Assembly (NCBI GenBank): GCA_000525675.1
Contig: CP002190.1
Location: forward strand, 1,364,001 to 1,428,000
DNA from: Bdellovibrio bacteriovorus W
GTDB lineage: Bacteria > Bdellovibrionota > Bdellovibrionia > Bdellovibrionales > Bdellovibrionaceae
Direction: 5' to 3'
DNA: 64,000 nucleotides
In this document: positions 6,586 through 64,000 of the stretch, piece after piece
How positions within the stretch are numbered: the stretch's first letter is position 1
Layout: the number at the start of each line of letters is the position of its first letter
Translations under genes and position numbers: made by a program
Notes under the pieces: model-generated
What the model saw: the letters and a program-made list of their open reading frames with translations, nothing else
What the model was told of the DNA's origin: nothing
Database searches by the model: none

Positions 6586-7413
6586 ATGTCAGCCTTTTTA
6601 GGGACTGTTGATAATTTGGGGAGATACGTAACGAAGCATGCGATGTACACATTGCATGTGATGTCGTTGGCTTATCTGTCCATTCGCGCTACAGTGACTG
6701 ATAAAGCTCAAGGCTTCCGTCAAATTCTTCAAGTCATCTCCGCACAAATTTATTTTACTGGATGGCAAGCGCTTCCTCTGATCTCTAGCTTAGGTTTGGG
6801 GGTTGGAGCATTGATGATCTTGCAATCGCAAGCCAATTTAAGCCTTATGGGCGGCACTCACATGCTCGGTTCATTTCTGATTCTGATGATTCTGAGAGAG
6901 GCGGGGCCTCTTTTAGTGGCTTTGGTGGTGATTGCGCGTTCAGGAACCGCAGTGGCGTCTGAACTTGGAAACATGCGCGCCAATCGAGAGATCGAAGCTC
7001 TTGAAGTAATGGGTATTAATCCACTGAGCTACATCGTCTTTCCTCGTCTGATCGGCGGGGTGATCAGCGTTCTATGTCTGGCGTTTTATTTTAATCTGAT
7101 TGCTCTTGTTGGTGGCTTCTTTGTGACACGTTTTCTACAAGATCTTTCTTTTGAGTTCTATGCAGATTCTCTTTTACGCTCTATTGCGGCTGCTGATATA
7201 GCCGTTTTCTTTTTGAAGAACACTTTTAGTGGAATCATTATATTTGCAGTTTCTTGTTTTCAAGGATTGTCAGTAAAGCGCAGTCATCATGAAGTTCCTC
7301 AAGTAACCACTCTTGCGGTAGTTCACAGTATTATTTTTGTACTTATTTTTAATATTTTTATTTCAGCTTTGTTTTATATGCAGCAACTCAGAAACTTAGG
7401 AGTGATCTCATGA
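6586..7413 (+). CDS. mlaE: MlaE-type ABC permease (lipid transport)
   Basis: 275 residues with several membrane helices. The segment LREAGPLLVALVVIARSGTAVASELGNMRANREIEALEVMG is the diagnostic MlaE permease motif (split here for clarity: LREAGPLL, ARSGTAVASELG, EIEALEVMG). MlaE sits in the inner membrane and works with MlaF ATPase and an MCE protein (MlaD) to move phospholipids between inner and outer membranes. It overlaps the ATPase gene by 4 bases (ATGA), so translation is coupled. Good Shine-Dalgarno (GGAAG). Confidence 0.93.
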   Translation: MSAFLGTVDNLGRYVTKHAMYTLHVMSLAYLSIRATVTDKAQGFRQILQVISAQIYFTGWQALPLISSLGLGVGALMILQSQANLSLMGGTHMLGSFLILMILREAGPLLVALVVIARSGTAVASELGNMRANREIEALEVMGINPLSYIVFPRLIGGVISVLCLAFYFNLIALVGGFFVTRFLQDLSFEFYADSLLRSIAAADIAVFFLKNTFSGIIIFAVSCFQGLSVKRSHHEVPQVTTLAVVHSIIFVLIFNIFISALFYMQQLRNLGVIS

Positions 7414-62700: not shown

Positions 62701-62918
62701 ACTTTCAACTGGATGATAAGATCCGTTTAGAACTTGCGGTTGAGGGTGGTTTATTAGAAGCCGTTGAAGCCCATAAAGAGATGCTGATGTCTGAAACACT
62801 GACAGCAGATCTTAAGTTGTTGCCAATGTCTGCAGAACCAACAGGTAAATTCACTGAAACAAGTGATATCGATGGAGCTGCGATTAAAATTGGTGTGACG
62901 AATCTACCGCGCGTATGA
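59744..62918 (+). CDS. ileS: Isoleucyl-tRNA synthetase, eukaryote-like (type 2), reading frame broken near 60070
   Basis: About 1057 residues when both frames are joined. The first part (59744 to about 60070) has [19 protein letters not shown] (HIGH motif as HYGH) and [17 protein letters not shown]. The second (to 62918) carries [12 protein letters not shown], the editing domain, [12 protein letters not shown] and the [14 protein letters not shown] motif. PHYGH and the C-terminal architecture fit type-2 (mupirocin-insensitive) IleRS. The two parts are in different frames (+1). Deleting one A in GCTCAACAAAATC restores [13 protein letters not shown]. Because the enzyme is essential, a sequencing error is likely, but a true mutation or programmed shift cannot be excluded. 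Confidence 0.93.
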
Positions 62919-63670
62919 AAAAAAACGGAGGCGTTTTTGAATTTGCAGCCATCGGGCATGTGAGGACTCCCTTTAAAGATAAGTTTGGAGTTCCTAGGCA
63001 GCCAGGGTTGGCTGCGGAGGCGAAGGGAGTGATTAAACTTCACTCGAATCCGGATTTAAAAACGGCTCTACGCAGCTTAGAAGAGTTCACTCATCTTTGG
63101 ATTGTTTTTGTATTTCACGAGCATGGCGGGAAAAGCTGGAAGCCCAGCATTCGTCCGCCGCGATTGGGTGGAAATCGTAAAGTGGGAGTCTTGGCCTCGC
63201 GCTCACCCCATCGACCCAATCCTATTGGAATTTCTGCTGTTACCATTGAAAAAATTGATCTTGAAGCTGAGGGTGGTCCTGAAATTTACGTGGGTTCTGT
63301 AGACCTCGTGGATGGAACGCCCGTGTTAGATATTAAGCCCTACATTCCCTATGCGGATTCCTTCCCAGAGGCCGGGGCTGGTTGGGCCTCAGAGCCTATT
63401 CCTCGCACGAAGGTGGAGTTTAGCGACGTAGCTCTTGCAGAGATAAAAAAACGCGATCCCGGTGGTGAGGCGCGCTTACAGCAAATGATTGTTTCTGTTC
63501 TAGAGTTAGATCCTCGGCCAGCCTATAAAAAGCGTCAGTTCCCAGTGAGTGATTCTAAATCATGGGGGCAGCGCTATGGTTTTGAGGTGCTTGGGCATGA
63601 CGTTAAGTATGAGATTCAAGAAAACCAGTTCTTGGTTTTTGCAATTCAAGACATGCCTGTTGAGAGTTGA
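62915..63670 (+). CDS. trmO: tRNA (N6-threonylcarbamoyladenosine(37)-N6)-methyltransferase TrmO
   Basis: 251 residues of the TsaA/TrmO family. FAAIGHVRTPFKDKFGVPRQP at the N terminus, THLWIVFVFHEHGG, GVLASRSPHRPNPIGIS and GTPVLDIKPYIPYAD are conserved marks. It adds a methyl group to t6A37 of tRNA-Thr using SAM. The ATGA overlap with ileS suggests translational coupling, sensibly pairing two tRNA genes. The C-terminal part is the usual TrmO extension. Confidence 0.94.
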   Translation: MKKNGGVFEFAAIGHVRTPFKDKFGVPRQPGLAAEAKGVIKLHSNPDLKTALRSLEEFTHLWIVFVFHEHGGKSWKPSIRPPRLGGNRKVGVLASRSPHRPNPIGISAVTIEKIDLEAEGGPEIYVGSVDLVDGTPVLDIKPYIPYADSFPEAGAGWASEPIPRTKVEFSDVALAEIKKRDPGGEARLQQMIVSVLELDPRPAYKKRQFPVSDSKSWGQRYGFEVLGHDVKYEIQENQFLVFAIQDMPVES

Positions 63671-63695
63671 TTCACTAGTCTGGTGTGAGGCGAGG

Positions 63696-63851
63696 GATTT
63701 GCGGAGTCCACTTAGTGCAGTTCCTTGCGCTTCAGCGGCACAGCATCCTGCTTCAGTTACGGCCGCTGGCTTCGCCATCGGTTCGGGCCGTCCAGGCCCC
63801 CGCAAAGGCCGCTTTCGGCCAGGGACTGCACTAAGTGGACTCCGCAAAATC
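63696..63851. repeat. Foldable inverted-repeat element (MITE/REP-like)
   Basis: A 24-bp perfect inverted repeat bounds the element: TTTGCGGAGTCCACTTAG... (63698-63721) and its complement (63825-63848). Inside are three further hairpins: CAGCGGC (63733-63739)/GCCGCTG (63762-63768), GGGCC/GGCCC (63785-63799) and GGCCG/CGGCC (63807-63820). The interior is GC-rich compared with its neighbours. It folds as a long stem with three branches and is intergenic after trmO. The 3' remainder of the window to 64000 holds nothing I recognise. Confidence 0.75.
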
Positions 63852-64000
63852 TTGCTTTCAATCTTGTTGCTGGAATATTTTTTTGAATAAGCCACCTGTA
63901 ACATAAAACTTTTAAAAATGAATGAGCGATTAAAGTAGAAGTGTTTGTCTTTTTTAGATCCTGTGTTGTGATAGGGGCTTGGAAAAGGATTTCTTCTGTG

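Follow-up and report, generated by a model that had tools for sequence, protein, structure and literature searches.

Near the end of the window, the 64,000-nt stretch of the Bdellovibrio bacteriovorus W genome that was analysed as a whole, the trmO gene is followed by a large palindromic hairpin. The hairpin is one copy of a dispersed Bdellovibrio hairpin repeat family; its conserved unit, at about 63689-63860, is somewhat longer than the interval 63696-63851 in which it was first recognised. Transposon-derived DNA extends across the locus from 63664 to 63884. The locus consists of the following features:

62915-63670, + strand: trmO (PF01980 and TIGR00104), with its TGA stop at 63668-63670 inside the transposon terminal repeat
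63664-63684, + strand: degenerate terminal inverted repeat of an IS1-like element, GAGTTGATTCACTAGTCTGGT vs AAACTGATCCACTAGACTGGT (16/21 matches; best shuffle 15)
63689-63860, + strand: whole hairpin repeat unit, GGCGAGGGATTTG ... CAAAATCTTGCTTTC, delimited by own-genome alignment and covariance-model match
63698-63728, + strand: 5' arm of the outer variable stem (inverted-repeat arm)
63734-63739, + strand: 5' strand of the second stem, AGCGGC, pairing with 63807-63813 (model helix 2 and our own reading)
63742-63752, + strand: internal hairpin 1, AGCATCCTGCT (model helix 3; 3/3 pairs changed on both sides)
63763-63781, + strand: internal hairpin 2, CCGCTGGCTTCGCCATCGG (model helix 5)
63785-63799, + strand: internal hairpin 3, GGGCCGTCCAGGCCC (model helix 6; 100% of cells paired)
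63807-63813, + strand: 3' strand of the second stem, GGCCGCT (model helix 2)
63818-63848, + strand: 3' arm of the outer variable stem (inverted-repeat arm)
63861-63884, + strand: residual transposon DNA between the hairpin and the (lost) transposase gene (BLAST of L033 6669-6885 vs L034)

The outer arms are 31 nt each, 94% complementary and separated by 89 nt, and they contain the perfect 24-bp inverted repeat that the first-pass annotation had placed after trmO. Folded as RNA, 63696-63851 reaches -92.5 kcal/mol, while its shuffles average -53.6 (z -9.1; 0 of 200 shuffles as low), and with DNA parameters both strands of the window copy also lie far below their shuffles. Inside the second stem (63734-63739/63807-63813), the GC-rich core forms three hairpins, near 63742-63752, 63763-63781 and 63785-63799, reproducing the cloverleaf-like fold of that annotation. 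In our own reading of the fold, a CTTC/CTTC internal loop divides the outer stem from the core. Open frames of 113 and 114 aa cross the hairpin within 63549-63904, counting both strands, and look like chance products of GC-rich sequence.

Transposon context of the window copy

Four copies of the repeat in the same genome each form the right end of a roughly 1.2-kb element encoding a 290-aa IS1-like transposase; two of these elements are intact and two internally deleted. Within the element the hairpin follows the transposase stop codon and precedes the right terminal repeat, and the element is bounded by the terminal inverted repeats AAACTGATCC...GGATCAGTT. An 8-bp target duplication, GATTCTTT, is present at one of the four (L035) and matches at 7/8 positions at another (L037), while it is unclear at the other two. 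The carrier transposase matches NF033558 with E 1.3e-11 and 44.8 bits (cut-off 100), and PF03400 with E 0.007. In three other species, relatives with 57-62% transposase identity bear the hairpin at the same place; at 43% identity or less, the element is without it.

The window copy shares homology with this right end, beginning at the terminal repeat and stopping shortly before the transposase gene. Its BLAST homology to the intact insertion sequence copies begins at 63668, and the alignment (L033 6669-6885 vs L034) runs at 79.7% identity over 217 nt before it stops about 10 nt short of the transposase stop. Nine copies, that of the window included, possess the terminal repeat. At the window locus this transposon terminal repeat supplies the stop codon of trmO, and 18 other trmO orthologues are without the hairpin. 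For the window copy, searches turned up neither a left end nor a target duplication, nor a second terminal repeat within 1.7 kb downstream, in agreement with the initial impression that no target duplication was obvious; of the two terminal repeats expected of a MITE, the right one alone was found. Judged by its homology, the window copy is a truncated right-end remnant of an IS1-like transposon insertion behind trmO, truncated because neither left end nor target duplication was found. The first reading is refined accordingly, an IS1-like insertion sequence having brought the copy in at its end.

As a separate observation, two species (L174 vs L175) differ in the terminator stem-loop that follows trmO by an apparent inversion, CCCCATCACTGGGG vs CCCCAGTGATGGGG, such as template switching would produce.

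Distribution and conservation of the repeat family

The first-pass annotation had named a non-autonomous mobile element, a structured RNA and a dispersed repeat family as candidates, and had proposed a search of the whole genome and its relatives together with a covariance analysis. Both analyses support these candidates through many copies and strong covariation, and the hairpin is clearly not a single copy devoid of conservation or covariance in relatives. BLAST finds the repeat at 11 places in its own genome (3.007 Mb), and a covariance model built from 20 copies (R1) finds 19. Within the genus, the repeat is present in 23 of 24 genomes, at 1-31 copies each, with 14 copies in HD100. An order-wide search found only a few matches outside the genus: 4 and 1 in two further genera of its family, and a single weak one in each of two genomes from another family. 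The copies are dispersed, either single or paired; inverted pairs occur in several genomes, and their neighbours, where readable, are often convergent genes with a copy behind each. Rfam covariance models gave no match to the hairpin up to E 1, and a known Rfam RNA family was rejected. A literature search for Bdellovibrio palindromic repeats, confined to open-access papers and hence weak evidence of absence, returned no description. A predatory bacterium gains a genus-wide palindromic repeat family for which no earlier description was found.

Several further elements were observed in these genomes. Two copies in the W genome (L040, about 7000-7066, and L043; G000:C1:1843000 and 2048650) contain about 65 nt of additional sequence, inserted in the core and with a hairpin of its own. 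Unrelated dispersed repeats of about 105-126 bp lie near several copies (L038 5116-5222, L039 6103-6228, L040 7310-7434, L041 6736-6862 and 8327-8454, L042 6186-6311). Genome G006, which matches strain HD100, contains a single c-di-GMP-I riboswitch at 1,073,868-1,073,951, minus strand, within merRNA at the published HD100 coordinates.

The pairing of the fold is supported by covariation. RNAalifold predicts 32 pairs from 20 sequences, 24 of them with compensatory changes. Among 83 distinct copies, 30 of the 32 pairs show changes on both sides and 96.8% of cells pair; the covariation score is 0.70, compared with 0.15 for shuffled and at most 0.14 for slid partners, in an alignment that was fitted to the model and leans towards it. 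The core conserved in sequence comprises the second stem, a small hairpin and a stem bearing two further hairpins, and both core and loops are strongly conserved across the genus. The outer stem, about 30-40 bp long, is different in nearly every copy, with complementarity kept.

Two sister species have 26 of 31 copies at orthologous sites. When four unmatched copies were checked against the other genome, three corresponded to deletions with arm remnants and one to a clean absence; none of the compared sites showed a solo copy inserted cleanly and precisely. The copies are old and mostly inherited by descent. Over the 26 orthologous pairs, arm identity is 80 and 77% and flank identity 88 and 73%, and of 1524 stem pairs 205 have changed on both sides and 245 on one. 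Much faster evolution of the arms than of the flanks, which looked likely in single pairs, was discarded when the arms fell between the two flanks over all 26. An origin of the arms by copying from the insertion site, prompted by near-orthologous copies with rewritten arms, was rejected as well, the ‘empty’ sites being deletions that keep arm remnants in three of the four comparisons. The family provides a natural test bed for a standing question, namely whether selection or replication template switching carries long perfect stems through full sequence turnover.

Folding as DNA or as RNA

Isolated mismatches within the stem of the repeat are strongly skewed, with 93 C.T/T.C vs 3 G.A/A.G and 42 A.C vs 10 G.T. 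Part of this skew stems from the conserved internal loop; in pairs 10-28 outward, off this loop, there are still about 64 C-containing mismatches against 8 G-containing ones. Intrinsic-terminator-like hairpins from the same genomes and loci give 41 G.T, 10 A.C and no C.T. In a stem maintained as transcribed-strand RNA, G.U would be expected as the commonest imperfection, as in those terminators, and the repeat shows the reverse. A weak G.U excess in the first mismatch count was dismissed, since that count included stem edges; strict scoring gave none, and position-resolved counts were reversed inside the stem. Read on the other strand, the mismatches of the repeat are G.A and G.T, which are among the most stable mismatches in DNA. 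The stem imperfections look like those of a DNA hairpin and not like those of an RNA transcribed with trmO, a further refinement of the first reading. Comparing the mismatch spectrum of a conserved hairpin with that of terminators is a simple way to ask if it acts at the RNA or the DNA level, and which strand is involved.

Under DNA parameters, 114 of 125 copies have the bottom strand as the stabler one (p 7.5e-20), the mean difference being 5 kcal/mol, with the proviso that these copies are not independent, being related and sharing conserved loops by descent. Under RNA parameters the effect is much smaller (77 of 125), and random pieces used as a control show no strand preference. The bias is the same for either orientation of the upstream gene and on either contig strand, and a mutation bias linked to transcription or replication is therefore unlikely.

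We favour, with moderate confidence, a REP-like single-stranded-DNA hairpin, a dispersed repeat of which the window copy was delivered by the IS1-like element. The repeat would act as a DNA hairpin, its bottom strand (the one antisense to the upstream gene) folding in the single-stranded state like a REP palindrome or an attC site, and would be kept or spread by DNA-level processes. The folded strand may be recognised by a putative enzyme acting in trans, and the perfect stem may be renewed through arm-to-arm template switching, a process documented to keep stems perfect by way of multi-base compensatory changes (PMC8794818). The repeat would settle just behind stop codons and then be passively transcribed as a 3' untranslated region. 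Several points count against the DNA hairpin: no mobilising enzyme was found, the copies are old and mostly inherited, and the window copy shows no bottom-strand preference (-58.1 vs -56.0 kcal/mol). Y1 (RAYT-type) transposases are absent from the W genome and from two other carriers. They lie within 2 kb of a hairpin copy in 1 of 20 cases, and their number does not track copy number (Spearman 0.27, p 0.20); a RAYT-driven REP was rejected on these grounds. In the genus at large, Y1 transposases are common (L188-L207), with 10-12 in G012 and G022. It seems doubtful that the repeat stands for a novel kind of single-stranded-DNA hairpin, mobile or recombinogenic, in which a bottom-strand cloverleaf is recognised by a putative enzyme, the stem is rewritten yet stays perfect, and the unit is parked behind stop codons and serves as an end module of insertion sequences.

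A role as RNA and an inert origin are the serious rivals. In the former, which we regard as possible though clearly less probable than the DNA hairpin, the repeat is a structured RNA co-transcribed with the upstream gene as its 3' untranslated region; the hairpin ends or protects the transcript, as a terminator or a block to 3' exonucleases, and its pairing is under RNA selection. The genomic position, taken from simple ORF calls, is in keeping with this role, as it is with the DNA hairpin: 84 of 123 upstream genes share the strand of the repeat (84:39; p 6e-5), the gap after the stop codon has a median of 12 nt (55/84 within 30 nt), and 70 of 103 downstream genes are convergent. The fold is very stable and the 3' edge of some copies is T-rich, but the window copy is without a terminator-like T run, and no intrinsic terminator (GC-rich stem plus T run) was called there. 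The mismatches on the + strand are opposite to those of an RNA helix, G.U being nearly absent and C.T and A.C common, unlike in terminators of the same genomes.

Transcription bears directly on the RNA role. One HD100 copy, at 1,339,140-1,339,262, falls inside APsRNA6, a published attack-phase transcript at HD100 1,338,787-1,339,441 on the + strand (PMC3627812). This copy is transcribed, apparently as a 3' untranslated region, and an RNA role is therefore possible; against a terminating hairpin, APsRNA6 is reported to continue about 140 nt beyond the copy, up to the edge of a second weak copy. The 5' part of APsRNA6 encodes a protein of about 90 aa that is 48% identical to a small protein in genome G017, and this homologue, too, has a hairpin copy behind it. 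APsRNA6 (L284 788-1442) appears to be a small-protein mRNA with the hairpin repeat in its 3' region, and a published Bdellovibrio small RNA may be open to reinterpretation accordingly.

Less probable still is an inert relic, a functionless palindrome whose complementarity is renewed purely by replication template switching and which spreads only via occasional capture by transposons. The documented capacity of template switching to maintain perfect stems (PMC8794818), arms that turn over about as fast as the flanks yet co-changed in 205 of 1524 pairs between the two sister species, and the loss of some copies through internal deletions are all compatible with it. A mutational process alone leaves the conserved core and the fixed position behind stop codons unexplained, and the genus-wide conservation of core and loops and the persistence of 26 of 31 sites in the sister species argue against a relic. 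A derivation of every copy from decayed ends of the IS1-like insertion sequence, as MITEs or relics, is very improbable and largely refuted for the family. Support is confined to the window copy, which keeps its terminal repeat (as does one G009 copy, L136, for which the derivation probably holds too). In about 136 other copies the search for a terminal repeat gave nothing better than the shuffled control, and the hairpin is also common in genomes (G012, G005, G017) that have no close relative of the transposase.

Comparison with known palindromic systems

REP, REPIN and BIME sequences with their TnpA-REP (RAYT) transposases resemble the hairpin repeat as dispersed extragenic palindromes at gene 3' ends, partly in inverted pairs; they are non-autonomous and fold as single-stranded DNA, as the hairpin repeat probably does. 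A REP is a palindrome of 20-40 bp with a conserved 5' tetranucleotide of the GTAG type, whereas the present unit is much larger, about 170 bp with the conserved edges GCGGGGATTTG / CAAATTTTGCT, and has a cloverleaf core and a hypervariable long stem. No cognate Y1 transposase flanked by the repeats was found; the copies do not flank RAYT genes and are present where no Y1 transposase was found.

The attC sites of integrons likewise place a hairpin just behind a stop codon, keep structure while sequence varies, and favour the bottom strand. Unlike attC, the hairpin repeat forms no arrays and its conserved part is the apical core, not the outer ends; R''/R' boxes (RYYYAAC / GTTRRRY) are absent from the edge consensus, read by eye. 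Intrinsic terminators share the position right behind the stop codon, but their stem is far shorter, their mismatch spectrum is opposite, and they have the T run that the window copy lacks.

Like IS1-family MITEs and relics, the window copy borders on an IS1-like terminal repeat, here at one of its two sides. Unlike MITEs, it has no second terminal repeat or target duplication, and most members of the family are without a terminal repeat. Long palindromic repeats of the ERIC/YPAL type are, like the hairpin repeat, genus-restricted intergenic palindromes of 100-170 bp with a conserved core. ERIC/YPAL families keep a similar arm sequence, whereas the arms of the hairpin repeat differ between copies with their complementarity kept.
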